Assembly: GCA_015231605.1 (NCBI GenBank)
Contig: JADGBG010000006.1
Location: forward strand, 1 to 63,201
DNA length: 63,201 nucleotides
Source: Alphaproteobacteria bacterium
Lineage (GTDB): Bacteria > Pseudomonadota > Alphaproteobacteria > Rhodospirillales > Magnetovibrionaceae
Direction of reading: 5' to 3'
Part shown: positions 5,611 to 27,170 of the stretch, piece after piece
Layout: each line of letters opens with the position of its first letter
Numbering within the stretch: the stretch's first letter is position 1
Made by a program: the position numbers and the translations under genes
Notes under the pieces: model-generated
The model's input: only the letters and a program-made list of their open reading frames with translations
Database searches by the model: none
What the model was told of the DNA's origin: nothing

Positions 5611-5626
5611 TGTCGGAAACATGACA
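5611..5626. promoter_or_regulatory. NifA upstream activator site (nifL side)
   Basis: TGTCGGAAACATGACA is TGT-N10-ACA. The centre lies 51.5 bp upstream of the nifL -24 box, the same distance as at nifB, nifE and modA. Confidence 0.8.
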
Positions 5627-5718: not shown

Positions 5719-7275
5719 ATGGTCAAGGATCGCACATCCGCAAGCCTTCCCCTCCAACCGGGCGATTGGAACGGTGGCGTGGCGTTGGACGTGTATCGCC
5801 AGGCCATCGAGTTCGTGCCCGTGGCAACGTCGATTACGGATGTCCGGGCTAACATTCTTTATGCCAACTCCGCATTCGAACGTCTCACGGGGTACACAGA
5901 GAGCGAAATCGTGGGTCTGAACGAATCCGTGTTGTCGGATCATGCGACACCACCGGATACCTACCGAAAACTCTGGGCCGCCATTACGTCGGGACGAGAA
6001 TGGAAAGGCCGTCTGGTCAACCGGCGTAAGGACGGAACGCGCTACCTCGCGGATTTGACGGTTGTCCCGATATTGGATGCGCAAGGGAATCCTGAATATT
6101 TTCTTGGCATGCATCGCGATGTAACGGACGTCCATGAATTGGAAAGCAAGCTTAAGAACCAGAATACCCTTTTAAGTTCACTTGTTGAGGCCGCGCCGGC
6201 CCTGATTGCCTTGCTGAACGCCTCTGGCAAGGTGATCTTCTCGAACCCTGCCTTTGAAGACCTACAGCGTGAAATGCCACGGGATGTTTTGGCGCCTCAT
6301 TTCTTACGGGCCTTGAACGAAAGTTTGGGCGTTGATTTGCGTTCGTTATGCGAAAACGGAACGGATTTTTCTGCCGTAGAGGCGCGTATCGAAACGCTAG
6401 ACGGGGAAATCCGGTGGTTCGCCTGTTCCGCAACCCGCGTGCCGGAACAGGATATGAGTGCGGCGGGGTATTTTTCCGTGAATGGCCGGTGCGGACTGTT
6501 GTTGGTGGCAAGCGACATCACCCTCCAGCGACGCCGATTTGAGCAAGCGCGCACCAACGCCGTGCGGGCCGTACTGGCCGAGCAGCAGATGCTTCAAGGC
6601 ATGCGCGAAGTGATCTCGGGTGCGGTCTTCCAACTGCAAGGCCCGCTCAATGTCATGAACGCCGCTCAGCAGATGGCGCTGCGCAAGACCGGCACTGACG
6701 AGCAGACGTCCTTGCCCGTCGCCGAAATGCTGGAAGCTGGATACGCTGCAGTGGAACGGCTCAAGTCCGCCATGCCCCGTTTGGCGCCGGAACCGGTGGA
6801 GCCAGTCAATATCAATGAACTGATCCACGATGTTCTGGATATATCAATCGAAGATCTGTTGCGCGCCGGCGTATTCGTCGATTGGCGTCCGGAAAAACAA
6901 CTGCCCAATGTGCCGGGCCGCGCCAACGCATTGCGTTCGTTGATCAAACACCTGTTGGATAACGCGATCCTGGCGATCAAGGACGGTGGCGGCTTGCGGG
7001 AAATCGTCATCACGAGTTCCGTCACGCCTTCTGGAGACGTGCGCCTGGACGTGCGCGACACGGGGCCGGGCCTGGATGAGAAACTGCGTTTGAAAATTTT
7101 CGAACCCTTCTTTACCGGATGGGTCAAAACCCGCTTCCGCTCGGGAATGGGCCTGGCCCTGGCACGGCGGATCATTATTGAACAGGGAGGAAGTCTGGAA
7201 ATCGCAAATCACATGACGGGTGGGTGCCGGGTTGAGGTCGTCTTCGCCGCCGCCAGCCTGGGTCATGGTCAATAA
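5719..7275 (+). CDS. nifL: NifL, redox-sensing anti-activator of NifA
   Basis: A 518-residue regulator, close to the 519 residues of Azotobacter vinelandii NifL. Residues 25-140 form the flavin-type PAS domain, including [17 protein letters not shown] and LGMHRDVTD, both very like the Azotobacter protein. A second PAS-like domain spans about 150-270. A helical H-box region and a GHKL ATP-binding domain follow, with the N-box around N415, the DTGPGLD box at 447-453 and GMGLALARR at 477-485. The position of the Azotobacter H305 is a phenylalanine here ([11 protein letters not shown]304), so autophosphorylation at that site is impossible. Known NifL proteins inhibit NifA by direct binding, not phosphotransfer. 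It lies 11 bases before nifA. Confidence 0.92.
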
Positions 7276-10487: not shown

Positions 10488-11053
<566 letters not shown>

Positions 11054-11058
11054 TCGCC

Positions 11059-11634
11059 ATGCGCCACGCCGTCTGGCCTTCGGTGTTTCAGGAACGACCC
11101 CGGCGTCGCATGTTGGCGCGAGCCAGGGGGCACGGGAACGATGCGGCGTTTGCCGCCATGGCGTTGAATGCGCGGAGGGGCGAAAACGCCATGGGAGGAT
11201 GGATGGGATTGGGTGCGGGGCAGTTCCGTCACGTCATGCGGTTGCATTTTCCCCGTGCGCGGGTGCCGGTCGGCGTGCGGACCGCCATCCACCGGCCCAA
11301 AACGCGTTCGATGGAATGGAGCGAACTGCGCAGGCTGCTGCGCCGCCATCGCGCCGGACGAGACGTTTCCGAACTGTTCATGGCGGACATCGTTTGTTCG
11401 GCCTGTCTGGGGTCGGATCATCTTTGGCAGGACTTGGGGCTTTTCAATAGGGGCGAGTTGACGTCCTTGATGCGACGCAATTTCCCCTCGCTCGCAGAAC
11501 GCAATACACGGGACATGAAGTGGAAAAAGTTTCTCTACAAGCAGCTCTGTATCGCGGAAGGCGTCTATGTTTGCCGCGCCCCATCGTGTGAGGAGTGCGC
11601 TGATTATGACGCCTGTTTCGGCCCGGAGTCCTGA
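11059..11634 (+). CDS. nifQ: NifQ, molybdenum donor for FeMo-co synthesis
   Basis: A 191-residue protein with the NifQ signature C-x4-C-x2-C-x5-C close to its C terminus (CRAPSCEECADYDAC), the ligands of the Fe-S-Mo cluster. NifQ gives molybdenum to the NifEN/NifH maturation complex. The ATG used has a GAGGTG site 6 bases upstream; a GTG three codons earlier overlaps the preceding stop. The arginine-rich N terminus is less conserved. The 3' end overlaps the start of draG. Confidence 0.92.
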   Translation: MRHAVWPSVFQERPRRRMLARARGHGNDAAFAAMALNARRGENAMGGWMGLGAGQFRHVMRLHFPRARVPVGVRTAIHRPKTRSMEWSELRRLLRRHRAGRDVSELFMADIVCSACLGSDHLWQDLGLFNRGELTSLMRRNFPSLAERNTRDMKWKKFLYKQLCIAEGVYVCRAPSCEECADYDACFGPES

Positions 11635-12571
11635 ACTCGCCAATAGCGAGCGCGTGGCGATTATGGACCGGGCGCAAGGGGCATATCTGGGTTTGGCCGT
11701 CGGCGATGCGCTGGGATCAACGGTGGAATTCATGACGCCGGGTGAAATCCGGGAAGCTCATGGGATGCACAAGGATTTGATCGGTGGGGGGTGGCTCAGG
11801 CTCAGGCCCGGGCGGGTCACGGACGACACGGAAATGTCTCTGGCTTTGGGACGCGCTATCTTGAGCGAAGAGGGGTTTCGCCCCAGCTCCATCGCCGAAC
11901 AGTTTGACGCATGGTTGAAAAGCAAACCGGTGGACGTTGGTCACACTGTACGCCGGGGCATCATGCGGTTTCGCACACATGGTACGACGCTTTCCCCCAT
12001 GGATCCTTACGATGCGGGCAATGGCGCGGTGATGCGTGTCCTGCCGGTTGCGCTCGCGACCCTGGGTGCGTCGATGGACGAGATCGAACGCGCCGCCTTG
12101 ATGCAGGCCCACGTGACACACAATGCACCGTTGGCCGACGTCGGAATGCTGGCGGTGGTGGAGATGACCCAGCGTGCCCTCAGGGGCGGCGGGGACGCTT
12201 ACCGCGACATGGTGGTCTTGGCGCACCGCCTGAGAGATCAAGCGCCGGAATATGATTTCACGAAGCGTCCGCAAAACAATCCCGGGGGCTTCCTGCCGGA
12301 AACACTACGCGCCGTTATGCAGGCATTTCTGCGCACCGACAATTTTGAAAGCGCCCTTGTCGATGTCGTGAACCGAGGAGGAGACGCCGATACGACCGGC
12401 GCGATTTTGGGCTTCATGGCCGGTGCGCTGCACGGTGCTGCGGCGATCCCGGCCCGCTGGACAAGGGATCTGGACCCAAGCGTCAGAAAGCATTGCGAGA
12501 TGCAGGCGCGGGCGTTGCTTGAAATGTGTCCGTTGCTGAGCGGGCGACCGGTGCGGTTTATTTTAGATTGA
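11606..12571 (+). CDS. draG: DraG, dinitrogenase reductase activating glycohydrolase
   Basis: A 321-residue ADP-ribosylglycohydrolase that removes ADP-ribose from R101 of NifH and so reactivates it. The binuclear Mn ligands fall in DDTEMSLALGR and in GGDADTTGAILG. GLAVGDALGSTVEFMT, WLKSKPVDVGHT and DAGNGAVMR follow the Rhodospirillum DraG sequence closely. The chosen ATG (MTPVSARS) has GAGGAG 8-10 bases upstream and lies inside nifQ; an internal ATG (MDRAQGAY) would give a length nearer R. rubrum DraG. It ends the nifB operon and is not next to draT. Its last 14 bases overlap the convergent hemerythrin gene. Confidence 0.93.
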   Translation: MTPVSARSPELANSERVAIMDRAQGAYLGLAVGDALGSTVEFMTPGEIREAHGMHKDLIGGGWLRLRPGRVTDDTEMSLALGRAILSEEGFRPSSIAEQFDAWLKSKPVDVGHTVRRGIMRFRTHGTTLSPMDPYDAGNGAVMRVLPVALATLGASMDEIERAALMQAHVTHNAPLADVGMLAVVEMTQRALRGGGDAYRDMVVLAHRLRDQAPEYDFTKRPQNNPGGFLPETLRAVMQAFLRTDNFESALVDVVNRGGDADTTGAILGFMAGALHGAAAIPARWTRDLDPSVRKHCEMQARALLEMCPLLSGRPVRFILD

Positions 12572-13004
12572 GCGTCACCTTCAGATGAGCCGCAAGCGCG
12601 CTGTCCATGGTGATCAGGTGTAGCTGGAACCATTCGGGAAGCTGGCTGTTGATGAATTCGCGCGGCAAGACCAAGCTGCCACGTTCGGCACGCATCAACA
12701 TTGCCTTCAATTCACCGAGCAGACGATTGTGCTCCCCTCGATGTTCCCAGAACGCCGGAAAATCCGTTTCTTTCATCAACAGTTCTTCGTGGGCGAAGTG
12801 TTCTTGCGTATGACGTACGAGCTCCTTGAGCAAGGGGGCGAACACGCTTTTGGGGACGAACGTCAGCGCGTTTTGGATGCTGATGAATTCCCTGTGATAT
12901 CCGTCCATCACCCCAACACCTAATGCCAAGTGTTCTTCCGACCACTTCAAAAGAGGAGGAGGGGTGTCGAGGAGCGGGTCTTCGTGGATGTGCGGAGTGC
13001 TCAT
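12558..13004 (-). CDS. Bacteriohemerythrin in the nif regulon
   Basis: A 148-residue single-domain hemerythrin. All seven diiron ligands can be placed: H37, H69 and E73 (HFAHE), H88 and H92 (HRGEH), H129 and D134 (HLITMD). Such proteins bind O2 reversibly at a non-heme diiron site. The gene follows the SIR2-like gene with a 4-base overlap and so shares its NifA/sigma-54 promoter. A function in oxygen buffering, oxygen delivery or oxygen sensing during nitrogen fixation is inferred. It converges on draG with a 14-base overlap. Confidence 0.92.
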   Translation of the reverse strand: MSTPHIHEDPLLDTPPPLLKWSEEHLALGVGVMDGYHREFISIQNALTFVPKSVFAPLLKELVRHTQEHFAHEELLMKETDFPAFWEHRGEHNRLLGELKAMLMRAERGSLVLPREFINSQLPEWFQLHLITMDSALAAHLKVTLNLK

Positions 13005-13861
13005 GATGCGGCTTGCATTTGCTGTTTGGCGATGGACAGGAAATCGTCGATACCCGCATCGACGACGGTAATTCCTTGCATGGAGCAAAAACGTTTTTCC
13101 TTGTCGGTGGCGTTCGGGATCAGCGCCCAACCCTTGTCGACATGGGAATCATGGAGAATGTCGCTCATCACCATGCGTTCCGTGTCGCGCGTCAGACGCA
13201 TTCCCAGCAGGACGTATTTCAGTCCTTTGCGTTTTTCCTTAAGGAAGGAGGGAATGGCGAAGCCGCCCATCAATTCGGTGATGTAGTCCACATAGTCCGC
13301 GTCGGATGCGATATAGGTTGGGTACGGCGTAGGGCTTCCCATGGGTTTGAACAGCACCGGAAGTTTCGGATCAGCTTCTTCGTGTGAGATTTCCCGATAC
13401 TTTTCTCCATCATATTCGTGGATCTGAAACCGGAAGTCCGTGCCGCCGATGCGCGCGGTCCCGCGCACCAGGATATGGGGGGCACCGTTGTAACTGTCCT
13501 GCAACTGGGAGTCGCGGTTGATGTCGATGACGTATTCGGGCTGGAGTGCGGCCAGCCAGTCGTGAACGGCGGCGCGGCTCCATTGCGTTTCGCCGTAGAG
13601 CGTGGTGAGGAAGCGGTTGATGAAACCGCGCCCTTTCTTAAGTTCCAGATTCATCGCGGCGCGGGGGAATTCATACATCAGCTTGGGCGCCATGGGACGG
13701 CCGTTGTTCATGGCGAGGATCAGGGAATGGCTATCCGCGGGCATCGGCGTTCCGTCCGTTACCGACACGCATCCTTCCAACGCGCCAGGCCCCAAATATG
13801 GAACGGCTTGTCCATCCCGAATGTGTTCGGCGATGGTGTAAAGGACGGTGTCTGTGGTCAT
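13001..13861 (-). CDS. SIR2-like (SIR2_2 fold) protein under NifA control
   Basis: A 286-residue protein with a SIR2_2-like Rossmann fold. Visible elements are AVPYLGPGAL (19-28) for the nucleotide-binding G-x-G loop, VIDINRDS (111-118) for the T-N-x-D segment, LFKPMGSP (170-177) at the usual K-L-H-G position, SDADYVDYI (186-194), and LLGMRLTRD (218-226). The histidine needed for catalysis in active family members is M174, so deacylase or NADase activity is doubtful while NAD binding remains possible. Start MTTDTVLY has GGGAG 8 bases upstream; an in-frame ATG lies five codons earlier. It is first in a two-gene unit with the hemerythrin. Confidence 0.8.
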   Translation of the reverse strand: MTTDTVLYTIAEHIRDGQAVPYLGPGALEGCVSVTDGTPMPADSHSLILAMNNGRPMAPKLMYEFPRAAMNLELKKGRGFINRFLTTLYGETQWSRAAVHDWLAALQPEYVIDINRDSQLQDSYNGAPHILVRGTARIGGTDFRFQIHEYDGEKYREISHEEADPKLPVLFKPMGSPTPYPTYIASDADYVDYITELMGGFAIPSFLKEKRKGLKYVLLGMRLTRDTERMVMSDILHDSHVDKGWALIPNATDKEKRFCSMQGITVVDAGIDDFLSIAKQQMQAAS

Positions 13862-13895
13862 GGTGAGGTCTCCCATTGCGTCTTGAGGGAGGTAC

Positions 13896-13911
13896 TGCAA
13901 TTCCCGCACCA
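13896..13911 (-). promoter_or_regulatory. Sigma-54 promoter of the SIR2-like/hemerythrin unit
   Basis: On the minus strand the sequence is TGGTGCGGGAATTGCA with GG-N10-GC. Predicted start near 13885 leaves 24 bases before the SIR2-like ATG. It lies wholly in the gap after draT. Confidence 0.85.
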
Positions 13912-13953
13912 GTTTTGCGACCAGGGAATTTCGGGGATTTGAATGGCCGCCAT

Positions 13954-13969
13954 TGTCGGTCTTGCGACA
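13954..13969. promoter_or_regulatory. NifA upstream activator site of the SIR2-like/hemerythrin unit
   Basis: TGTCGGTCTTGCGACA sits within the extended form TTGTCG-N6-CGACAA. Its centre is 50.5 bp upstream of the -24 box on the minus strand, nearly the same geometry as at nifB and nifE. Confidence 0.88.
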
Positions 13970-13976
13970 ATACGGA

Positions 13977-14810
13977 TTAGAACGTTGCGATTGCGACCTC
14001 ATAGACGCCGCCGAGTACGATGTATTCATTTTCTCCGCTCATGCGCCCCGGAAGCAGTCCGGAAAAGAAGAAGATTTTGGCAAGCGGAACACGGGCGGTG
14101 AGAATGTGGTCTCCGAACTCTCCGGCCGTATCGCGGTCCGTGGTGAACGAATTGACGTTGTTGAGCAGGATCACGGCGTTTCGTTTATCGAGCCTTTGAA
14201 GCACCTCGAAATCGTCCAACCGGTTGACGCCTCGATAAAGGGTCATATGCGTTTCGCCCGGAATGCGGCGTGCCAATTCGTATTGGCAATAGGCCTGCAC
14301 CAGATCCAATTGCGCCTCCAAGGCATTGGTGCTGTATAGGCCGTTGGCGCGGTCCTTGAGAAACAGGGCGTATGCGGGATCGGCCGGGTCGGGCAGCGGC
14401 TTCTTATGGTGACGCACCGTCAGCCCGAAGCGGGACTCCGCCCAGCTTTTCACCACCGCGCCCTCGCGCCCGTCGGTATCGAAAAACCAACCGCGAAGGG
14501 TGCGCAGGTAGTCCGCCTTGACGCGGGCCTCGCGTTTTTCGCCTCCCGCGTCCTCCGGCGCATAAAGACGAAACTGCACCGCCATGTAGTCCTGGAATTT
14601 TTCCGCGCGTGCTTGTGGATCGGACAGTCCGTCCAGATCGGCGAACAAATCGGCATGGAAGGACGCGACGCCATCCAGTTCCAAGGGCTGGGGATACCGC
14701 TGGAACGTCAATCCGCCCAGGATTACCGGTGGGACATTGCAGCGGTTCAGCGCAAGCCGCGCCTGTCGGGGCAGGGTCGTCGCATCCGTGTTCAAGCGTC
14801 CCGTCGTCAT
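13977..14810 (-). CDS. draT: DraT, NAD-dependent dinitrogenase reductase ADP-ribosyltransferase
   Basis: A 277-residue ADP-ribosyltransferase that modifies R101 of NifH with ADP-ribose from NAD when ammonium or darkness/energy limitation is sensed. It shows the R-S-E pattern of arginine-specific ARTs: LYRGVN, then NSFTTDRDTAGEFG, and a late ENEYIVLG. GLYSTNALEAQLDL is a further DraT family stretch. It diverges from nifH, with its start 211 bases from the nifH start, and ends just before the NifA site of the SIR2-like unit. I found no sigma-54 box for draT itself, so it may be expressed constitutively at low level. Confidence 0.93.
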   Translation of the reverse strand: MTTGRLNTDATTLPRQARLALNRCNVPPVILGGLTFQRYPQPLELDGVASFHADLFADLDGLSDPQARAEKFQDYMAVQFRLYAPEDAGGEKREARVKADYLRTLRGWFFDTDGREGAVVKSWAESRFGLTVRHHKKPLPDPADPAYALFLKDRANGLYSTNALEAQLDLVQAYCQYELARRIPGETHMTLYRGVNRLDDFEVLQRLDKRNAVILLNNVNSFTTDRDTAGEFGDHILTARVPLAKIFFFSGLLPGRMSGENEYIVLGGVYEVAIATF

Positions 14811-14994: not shown

Positions 14995-15912
<918 letters not shown>

Positions 15913-20659: not shown

Positions 20660-21613
20660 ATGAACGCGCAGTTGATCGCCAAGGGCATGGAGCGTTTGGT
20701 GTACGTGGTGGAGGGGACTGCGCCCAAGCCGGGCCACGGACCACTGATTTCCGCCCTGAACGAGTGCCTTGCAGACTTGGACTTGAAGTTGGTTTTTTCG
20801 CGCAAGGGCTGGCATCGTCCGGGGGGCGTGATCGACGGACATGGCCACCGTATCGCCGAAAATATCGGGGATTGGCTGGCGGATGCCACGAGCGGCGATC
20901 TGATGGATTTGTTCATTTCATACGAGGACGCGGGACTGCTCGCCACGCGTCTGTGCGGGGTTACCCATTACCTAACCGCCAGAACCGGTTCGGGCCCGTG
21001 GGACTTTTTGCAAGTCGAGGTGAATGAGCTCCGGGAGGTCACTGACCGGTTGATTTTTTCGCCCGGCATCCCCCCCGACGGGCCCGAGGACATAGTGGAG
21101 CCCGACAGTCCAGTTAAAGTCGACCCCACTCCTCTTGGGCCATCGTTCTATCGTTTGCGCAAGGCTCGCGACATTGGCGAAGCTTACCGAAAATTATTAG
21201 CCAACAGTTCCGCGGATACTTTGTTGGTGTTGCGGTTTTTCGATGAATGGCTTGCCAGCAGTGCCGCACAGACGACGTTTTGTCGCCGCTTCGTCTTGCG
21301 CGTGATCGATTACAAGGACCGCTTCGGCGACACCCGCCTACAGGCAACTCCGGTATCTACCCATGACACCGTATTGCCGCCGTTTCCTAGCGCGATTGAA
21401 CGCGGCTTGGATTTGGCGCGCTTCCTGGCGGCGTTCGATCGCGCCGCGGGCTATCCCATGGCGTGGTATTTCCTGATGGTTGCCGGCGCCCACCCGGATC
21501 TGGAACGCATTGCGCATGCCGTTCACGAAGATGTCAGTGGCGTGTACGACTATCTTCCCGAGCGCGATATCAAGGTGCTGAGCGCCTGGATTCAGAATCC
21601 ATACCGCTTCTGA
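20660..21613 (+). CDS. Uncharacterised nif operon protein
   Basis: A 317-residue soluble protein that I do not recognise. It has two apparent halves: about 1-150 with mixed beta/alpha character (LVYVVEGTA, DLKLVFSRKGWHRPGG), then a short proline-rich linker, then about 165-317 mostly helical (YRLRKARDIGEAYRKLL, ERGLDLARFLAAFDRAAGYPMAW). No signal peptide, cofactor motif or cysteine cluster. It is the last gene of the nifHDK unit, 2 bases after the preceding stop, and so should be co-expressed with nitrogenase. Confidence 0.75.
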   Translation: MNAQLIAKGMERLVYVVEGTAPKPGHGPLISALNECLADLDLKLVFSRKGWHRPGGVIDGHGHRIAENIGDWLADATSGDLMDLFISYEDAGLLATRLCGVTHYLTARTGSGPWDFLQVEVNELREVTDRLIFSPGIPPDGPEDIVEPDSPVKVDPTPLGPSFYRLRKARDIGEAYRKLLANSSADTLLVLRFFDEWLASSAAQTTFCRRFVLRVIDYKDRFGDTRLQATPVSTHDTVLPPFPSAIERGLDLARFLAAFDRAAGYPMAWYFLMVAGAHPDLERIAHAVHEDVSGVYDYLPERDIKVLSAWIQNPYRF

Positions 21614-26743: not shown

Positions 26744-26750
26744 GGTGATC

Positions 26751-27170
26751 GTGTCGGCTCGCCTCATCTTGGTGCATAAACAGCCGGTCAGCGCGCGCAC
26801 GCGCTTCCTTCGTTACGAACACGGCGTCATCGCCCCGGAGCCGCTTCCCGCGCTGTCCCAGGTGCTGGAGGAAGATGAGTTGGCCGGGAGCGCCGTGGTT
26901 CTGGAGCACCCGGCCATGCTGATCAACCGGGTGACTGAGGGCCTGGGCCTGGCGGCGTCGGATCTCAAACTGGAGAACGAGTTCCGCGCCTTCGTCGATA
27001 CGCCAGGGGGTGTTGTGCCCATTTACCTGGCGCGCATCGTCACGATCGATCCGCCATTCACCGTGGCTGACAAGCTCGGCGCGCGTTTCATCGATATCAC
27101 CGAGGCCCGCGATTTGGGTCCCGCCGAACTGGACCTTCTGCGTAGGGCGTACCTGTGTGTCATGGAGTAG
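26751..27170 (+). CDS. Uncharacterised nif operon protein
   Basis: A 139-residue soluble protein without cysteine clusters or membrane segments (one Cys near the C terminus). It begins SARLILVHKQPVSARTRFLRYEHG and has a compact beta-rich central part (NEFRAFVDTPGGVVPIYLARI). The GTG start at 26751 has GAGGTG 4 bases upstream; another GTG two codons earlier overlaps the preceding gene. It is the last gene of the nifEN unit. I do not recognise the family. Confidence 0.7.
   Translation: MSARLILVHKQPVSARTRFLRYEHGVIAPEPLPALSQVLEEDELAGSAVVLEHPAMLINRVTEGLGLAASDLKLENEFRAFVDTPGGVVPIYLARIVTIDPPFTVADKLGARFIDITEARDLGPAELDLLRRAYLCVME

Follow-up and report, generated by a model that had tools for sequence, protein, structure and literature searches.

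Why should genes for a SIR2-like protein and a hemerythrin stand together between draT and draG, in the middle of a nitrogen fixation (nif) island? The question is raised by a stretch of 63,201 nucleotides, hereafter the window, from an alphaproteobacterium of the family Magnetovibrionaceae, order Rhodospirillales (GenBank assembly GCA_015231605.1, contig JADGBG010000006.1, positions 1 to 63,201 of the forward strand). Gene order, annotation and published subfamilies indicate that the SIR2-like gene is very probably pnfA, known from Pseudomonas stutzeri A1501, and we put at roughly 55% the probability that the unit consists of PnfA and a hemerythrin, is driven by NifA and sigma-54, and supports nitrogenase during respiration independently of DraT and DraG. 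What is new here is the pseudo-sirtuin nature of the family together with its recurrent hemerythrin partner. The unit comprises the following features.

13001..13861, minus strand: SIR2-like gene (pseudo-sirtuin, probable pnfA), 286 amino acids, stop included (reading frame 13861-13004, stop codon 13003-13001)
12558..13004, minus strand: nif-type hemerythrin (HHE) gene, 148 amino acids, stop included (reading frame 13004-12561, stop codon 12560-12558)
13001..13004, minus strand: ATGA stop-start overlap of the two genes, four bases
13896..13911, minus strand: predicted sigma-54 (-24/-12) promoter TGGTGCGGGAATTGCA, from a site scan, with a like site in orthologues
13954..13969, minus strand: predicted NifA upstream site TGTCGCAAGACCGACA, from a site scan

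These coordinates agree with the first-pass annotation of the window, which had described a two-gene unit, overlapping by four bases and lying between draT and draG. The overlap may possibly couple translation of the two genes; it recurs in five related loci (L039, L040, L042, L043, L044), and in a version with GTG in L059 of Magnetovibrio blakemorei MV-1. Both regulatory sites fall within the 115-base gap that separates draT from the SIR2-like gene.

The SIR2-like gene and PnfA

In A1501, PST1325 was named pnfA; it is transcribed away from nifHDK, is preceded by a -24/-12 promoter and a TGT-N10-ACA site, was induced 9.68-fold, and was found to depend on NifA and sigma-54 by quantitative reverse transcription PCR in nifA and rpoN mutants (PMC2820453). 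A non-polar pnfA mutant, whose nitrogenase activity at 0.5% O2 was 23% of the wild-type level, was complemented (data not shown there). Its nifH transcript was normal and its activity was wild-type-like under argon without nitrate, while nitrogen fixation was lost under anaerobic nitrate respiration (PMC2820453). A function in electron transfer or in protection from O2 was suggested by its authors (PMC2820453); the defect under nitrate respiration appears to fit better with a supply of redox equivalents or electrons while the cell respires, and this would suit a SIR2-type nucleotide pocket.

The window gene resembles pnfA in its position beside nifH and in opposite orientation (it reads away from nifH, with draT in between), in its NifA and RpoN consensus sites, in the SIR2 label (PST_1325 is called a SIR2 family protein in PMC11332353), and in its membership of a diazotroph family with a distant second subfamily. 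Five close PnfA homologues were reported, from diazotrophs only (A. vinelandii 72%, Azoarcus BH72 55%, Dechloromonas 54%, Halorhodospira 49%, P. azotifigens 92%), as well as a second subfamily at 20% identity (PMC2820453), and this two-subfamily structure is mirrored in our SIR2 tree. The name pnfA itself is absent from PMC11332353 and PMC6053447. If the window gene is pnfA, its SIR2 family is known and partly characterised; the earlier statement that such a pair has no characterised function is correct for the pair, as far as the literature searched goes, yet fails for the SIR2 partner, of which a mutant has been described (PMC2820453).

A second published locus comes closer to the window in gene order. 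In the draT-azo0536-dcrH1 cluster of Azoarcus olearius BH72, azo0536 and dcrH1 were induced under N2 fixation and draT was not, and a secondary promoter was suspected (PMC8467165). As in the window, draT is followed by two genes, of which the second has a hemerythrin name (DcrH being a hemerythrin protein according to a literature listing), and BH72 holds the 55% PnfA homologue mentioned above. Judging from gene order in other Rhodocyclales and betaproteobacterial loci (L080, L104), azo0536 is presumably that homologue. A relative from Azonexus (L131) is 59% identical to the window SIR2-like protein.

Distribution and linkage to nif genes

Searches with the SIR2-like protein gave 6 positives among 289 genomes of the class and 41 among 199 of the order, the window genome included. 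Within the order, a SIR2 match is present in 39 of the 55 genomes above the nifH cut-off versus 2 of the 144 others, and these two (G353 and G464) hold nifH fragments. Thus 39 of the 41 SIR2-bearing genomes of the order pass the nifH cut-off, contrary to the refuting case named in the first-pass annotation, homologues unlinked to nif in nearly all genomes. Across a phylum sample of 398 genomes, SIR2 was matched in 18 and the nifH cut-off was passed by 38, with both in 14; of those with SIR2 and no nifH pass, G553 and G750 carry it in nifA-nifB-nifZ-nifT stretches, G576 has SIR2 plus a hemerythrin without a nif gene in view, and G612 gives a weak match.

A scan of named genomes returned at least 581 relatives at E up to 1e-3, of which the best 80, at 57-71% identity and hence uninformative on distant ones, were kept. 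They come from Chromatiales, Methylococcaceae, Rhodocyclaceae, Thiothrix, marine gammaproteobacteria and a few alphaproteobacteria. Three of them (L059, L060, L063) repeat L041, L043 and L044 and were omitted from the SIR2 tree while being kept in the 80-locus counts. A nif gene (counting nifQ) lies in the fetched stretch of 59 of the 80, draG alone in one, and neither in 20, several stretches being short; nifH stands upstream on the opposite strand in 42, and within 2.5 kb in 39 of these.

Predicted control by NifA and sigma-54

The predicted NifA and sigma-54 sites upstream of the SIR2-like gene (TGT-N10-ACA upstream of GG-N10-GC) are spaced at 58, as at other nif promoters of the window, which holds seven such pairs at spacings of 50-70 (58, 59, 59, 59, 59, 60 and 66); shuffled windows contain 0.17 pairs each on average, and at most 2 in 100 shuffles. 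For 79 of the 80 relatives at least 200 bases upstream were available, and among these a sigma-54-like site was found in 75 (13% in shuffles), a NifA site in 65 (6%), and an ordered pair 40-150 bases apart in 57 (0.3%). A stricter score left the sigma-54 site in 38 (3% in shuffles) and the ordered pair in 28 (0.2%). Even the 19 loci that lack any visible nif or dra gene have a sigma-54-like site in 18 cases, a NifA site in 15 and the pair in 12. When the window and its ten close relatives found in the order search were scanned, 9 of 11 had a sigma-54-like site 50-75 bases ahead of the start, and in L047 and L048 one was read by eye; an exact NifA site occurs in 7 of 11, with none in L039, L041, L042 and L045. 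The NifA/sigma-54 control postulated at the outset is supported as a prediction, by the spacing in the window and by the ordered pairs before 57 of 79 relatives.

In three Thiocapsa loci (L083, L088, L090) no nif gene is in view around the SIR2 relative, which nonetheless has NifA-like and sigma-54-like sites upstream; the neighbours read by eye in L083 and L076 are purE/purK-like and helicase-like.

A SIR2 fold without the catalytic histidine

By sequence, the protein is barely recognisable as SIR2: the Pfam family SIR2_2 matches at E 6.4e-4 and 20.3 bits, below the cut-off of 24.5, and no NCBIfam family matches it. Its AlphaFold2 model, built from an alignment of 54 sequences, has a mean predicted local distance difference test score (pLDDT) of 95.0 and a predicted template modelling score (pTM) of 0.93. 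In a VIA structure comparison the model matches BcThsA (8btp_A) at Z 19.8, with a root-mean-square deviation of 3.2 over 244 aligned residues, followed in the Foldseek and VIA lists by SeThsA (Z 19.1), DSR2 (19.0) and a KomBC chain (18.8), whereas the first classical Sir2 appears at Z 12.8. We consider it settled, at the level of the predicted model, that this is a Rossmann-type SIR2 fold closest to those of the nicotinamide adenine dinucleotide (NAD) hydrolases, or NADases, ThsA, DSR2 and KomC.

A mixed sequence profile of 24 relatives reaches SeThsA at E 1.1e-5. It pairs D113-I-N115-R116-D117 of the window protein with T-T-N-Y-D of ThsA, and, weakly (0.6 bits, 2.0 in ThsA 6lhx) although the motif is plain, K172-P173-M174-G175 with K-L-H-G. 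Across the window protein and the 80 relatives (n=81), N115, R116 and D117 are invariant, G24 is kept in all 81 and G26 in 78, while position 174, the catalytic His column, is Met in 62, Leu in 18, Thr in one and His in none. The family thus has the catalytic Asn of the TxNxD motif of ThsA/DSR2-type NAD hydrolases, and K-P-(M/L/T)-G in place of the K-x-H-G that carries the His. In ThsA, N112A and H152A each abolished NAD cleavage along with NAD binding, and H152A also lost the oligomer (PMC7272460). Given these mutants and the missing His, NAD hydrolysis by the window protein is unlikely. With two Cys in its sequence, the protein also has no sirtuin Cys4 zinc module.

A second, distant group of nif-linked SIR2 genes has lost the other catalytic residue. 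Whereas the close group is 45-73% identical to the window protein and lies in nifH/draT surroundings, the distant group is 22-28% identical in the rows aligned and, as fetched, homologous over most of its length at 22-32%, and in the fetched loci stands mostly just after nifT. Its 13 rows fall on one side of a branch with a Shimodaira-Hasegawa-like approximate likelihood ratio (SH-aLRT) support of 100, although long branches call for caution. As read from the alignment, all 13 have Trp at the position of the catalytic Asn, and 11 of them still have the His, so that each group lacks one of the two catalytic residues and two distant rows lack both. No hemerythrin was found beside distant-group SIR2 genes. 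From position or label, three published genes appear to belong here: Rcc03262 of Rhodobacter capsulatus, a SIR2 family gene listed as NF in a nifA mutant (PMC6925177); ZMO1821 of Zymomonas, induced with nif proteins and proposed to be a deacetylase, in a species without draT/draG (PMC8600466, PMC8594446); and the SIR2-like gene of Rhodovulum, in the order nifZ-nifT-SIR2 (PMC9412634). One genome (G418) has two distant-type copies, in two nif loci (L050, L052).

The hemerythrin partner

The second gene of the unit passes the hemerythrin cut-offs of TIGR02481 (65.6 bits versus 51.75) and Pfam (31.7 versus 25.3) and stays below that of NF033749 (69.5 versus 84). All seven iron ligands are present (H37, H69, E73, H88, H92, H129 and D134; 5 His, 1 Glu, 1 Asp), and a selection of 25 hemerythrin rows from SIR2 loci, with the window among them, keeps them without exception, so the complete ligand set reported earlier is confirmed. 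In a tree of 30 such hemerythrins and eight other hemerythrins of the window genome, 28 of the 30 form one clade (100/100) apart from the eight others. This nif clade takes in the copies that L077, L127 and L131 have at other places in their nif regions; the two left outside, from L125 and L099, are not directly beside SIR2. With bacteriohemerythrins (TIGR02481, NF033749) the protein shares the seven-ligand di-iron site, and it differs in belonging to a clade of its own against those eight and in a conserved DSALAAHLK-type C-terminus. The whole genome of G000 (3.18 Mb) yields 25 hemerythrin-domain matches.

Of 74 named loci in which 700 bases or more could be seen, 18 have a hemerythrin gene directly after SIR2, and the adjacent pair is also found in the window and in seven relatives that the order search gave (L039-L045; three recur among the best 80). 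Adjacent pairs with short or overlapping junctions occur in alpha-, beta- and gammaproteobacteria, although some gaps exceed 190 bases. The SIR2 tree requires at least 14 changes of pairing, and well-supported branches alone force 5 (in the fuller count of 15).

In titles and abstracts of the open-licence papers listed by our literature searches, we found no report of SIR2 and hemerythrin as a nif pair. A hemerythrin is drawn inside a nif cluster in PMC11208148; the study of the alphaproteobacterial NifA regulon in PMC4999443 does not mention SIR2 or hemerythrin, and the cited part of an Azoarcus transposon sequencing (Tn-Seq) study names neither gene (PMC9769520).

How might the unit work?

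If the window unit is PnfA plus hemerythrin, the PnfA-like protein would no longer cleave NAD and would act after transcription, as a binding protein, either through its retained pocket (G24, N115, D117) or through its surface. In this way it might secure the supply or the protection of nitrogenase during respiration, and the hemerythrin, in some lineages, may buffer or sense O2 (perhaps nitric oxide, NO) beside it. In a more specific and rather speculative version, which we think improbable as it stands, PnfA is a pseudo-sirtuin turned into a gauge of NAD(H) or ADP-ribose that keeps electrons flowing to nitrogenase during O2 or nitrate respiration, with the hemerythrin as its gauge of O2 or NO.

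Several observations weigh against reading the unit as PnfA plus hemerythrin in support of nitrogenase during respiration. The equivalence with PnfA stands on the SIR2 label, the nifH-side position and the family structure, not on the A1501 sequence. Compared by description, A1501 differs from the window in having no reported draT/draG, in that its authors report no SIR2 and liken residues 176-240 of PnfA to UspA/electron transfer flavoprotein (ETF) proteins, and in that no hemerythrin is named in the pnfA locus, where PnfA nevertheless works (Table 1, PMC2820453). The nitrate defect arises without O2, so that pure O2 protection is insufficient. Neither is the SIR2 gene universal among nitrogen fixers, since 16 of the 55 order genomes and 24 of the 38 genomes of the phylum sample that pass the nifH cut-off have no SIR2 match. 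Assignment of the catalytic columns rests on the mixed profile, its second motif scoring just 0.6-2.0 bits, and a profile of close relatives alone found no SIR2 in the Protein Data Bank (PDB), with one chance match. Given that ThsA H152A failed to bind NAD (PMC7272460), a His-less relative may not bind it either. As for the hemerythrin, its profile also finds strong matches in loci where no nif gene is visible (L205-L207), and hemerythrins away from SIR2 have a NifA-like site within 400 bases in 2 of 16 cases; three of the 16 lie in nif surroundings (L200, L203, L204), none of these with such a site.

DraT/DraG and other explanations

The adjacency of draT and draG had led to the suggestion that the pair senses NAD and O2 so as to tune the DraT/DraG switch on NifH, and some evidence points that way: the window and the seven near relatives with hemerythrin (L039-L045) have the pair between draT and draG, and, among 61 loci with 4.5 kb downstream in view, draG is nearby in 13 of 16 with an adjacent hemerythrin versus 6 of 45 without (p 1.6e-6, kinship ignored). 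Within the order, DRAT is found in 40 of the 41 SIR2 genomes, and for this very reason the order alone could mislead. Indeed, no DRAT match was obtained in 11 of 36 SIR2-bearing genomes, a set chosen from the best 80, mostly for long stretches, that includes some metagenome bins of untold completeness; the DRAT-less strains by title include Mangrovimicrobium, Methylobacter psychrophilus, Oceanobacter and Cohaesibacter marisflavi (L101), the last with an adjacent pair. Moreover, the phenotype of the pnfA mutant was recorded in A1501, where DraT and DraG were not found (PMC2820453); the distant nif SIR2 genes are placed after nifT; and Z. mobilis carries ZMO1821 without draT/draG. DraT and DraG thus appear to be neighbours of the pair and not obligatory partners; tuning of their switch is an unlikely explanation, and as a core role we reject it, on the DRAT-less genomes and the A1501 phenotype.

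Catalytic explanations fare worse still. An active sirtuin deacylase acting on acetylated nitrogenase proteins, the role suggested for ZMO1821 in PMC8600466, would agree with the SIR2 fold of the model and with the acetylation of nitrogenase proteins in Z. mobilis (PMC8600466); the catalytic His is, however, missing in 81 of 81 sequences, the two Cys cannot make up a Cys4 zinc module, and the first classical Sir2 structure scores lower (Z 12.8 versus 19.8). We rejected this candidate for want of the His and the zinc module, and regard it as very improbable. An active NADase or phage-defence gene, in the nif island by accident, we can scarcely credit. ThsA, DSR2 and KomC, the nearest folds (Z 15-20 in the rows shown), are indeed defence NADases, yet here the catalytic His is replaced, sensor and partner domains are absent from what is a single-domain protein, and the gene belongs to the nif regulon with a conserved NifA-type promoter; this candidate was rejected after a PADLOC search in which no family matched at E 0.1.

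A more serious alternative is that PnfA, acting for nitrogenase, and a hemerythrin that scavenges O2 are functionally separate genes of the nif regulon that share a promoter. SIR2 without a directly downstream hemerythrin is in fact the commoner arrangement (56 of 74), which weighs against a joint function and in favour of separate ones, as do same-clade hemerythrins elsewhere in the nif region of Mangrovimicrobium, Oceanobacter and Azonexus, and the repeated changes of pairing on the tree. The recurrence of short or overlapping junctions in three proteobacterial classes, even allowing for the wider gaps, speaks for a functional link, and we consider full separation possible but not probable.

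The surrounding nif island

The neighbours of the unit in the window are as follows.

13977..14810, minus strand: draT, immediately upstream of the pair and on its strand (Pfam DRAT, 330 bits)
11567..12571, plus strand: draG, convergent with the pair (TIGR02662, 379.6 bits versus a cut-off of 337.05)
15022..15912, plus strand: nifH, divergent from draT-SIR2-HHE
11050-11634, plus strand: nifQ (PF04891, 183.8 bits)

The longest draG reading frame is overlapped by nifQ, and the TIGR02662 model matches DraG from residue 32 on; the true start probably lies further in, near 11660. Further along the island, nifL (5719-7272, plus strand; TIGR02938, 492.6 bits versus a cut-off of 242.45) precedes nifA and has a NifA/sigma-54 pair at 5611/5670. 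NifL is cited as absent from Alphaproteobacteria (PMC4999443), and the window NifH is up to 94% identical to that of a gammaproteobacterial locus (L072); together these suggest a transferred nif island. Two more plus-strand genes of the island are conserved in relatives without a Pfam or NCBIfam match, one of 317 amino acids (20660-21610) and one of 141 (26745-27167), the latter recurring near SIR2 in several Methylococcaceae loci.

Significance

Disruption of the probable orthologue of the window gene lowers nitrogenase activity at 0.5% O2 by three quarters. NAD-linked redox becomes a candidate route that can be tested and that agrees with the dependence of the published phenotype on respiration, while the hemerythrin that recurs beside the gene directs attention to O2 or NO. 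If PnfA does act as a gauge, it would form a layer of nitrogenase control independent of DraT/DraG, and the two nif SIR2 groups would have become pseudo-enzymes by losing different catalytic residues. Reading the family as His-less SIR2 proteins also argues against the published deacetylase idea for the distant cousin ZMO1821. Finally, helpers of this kind may be overlooked when minimal nif gene sets are moved to new hosts.

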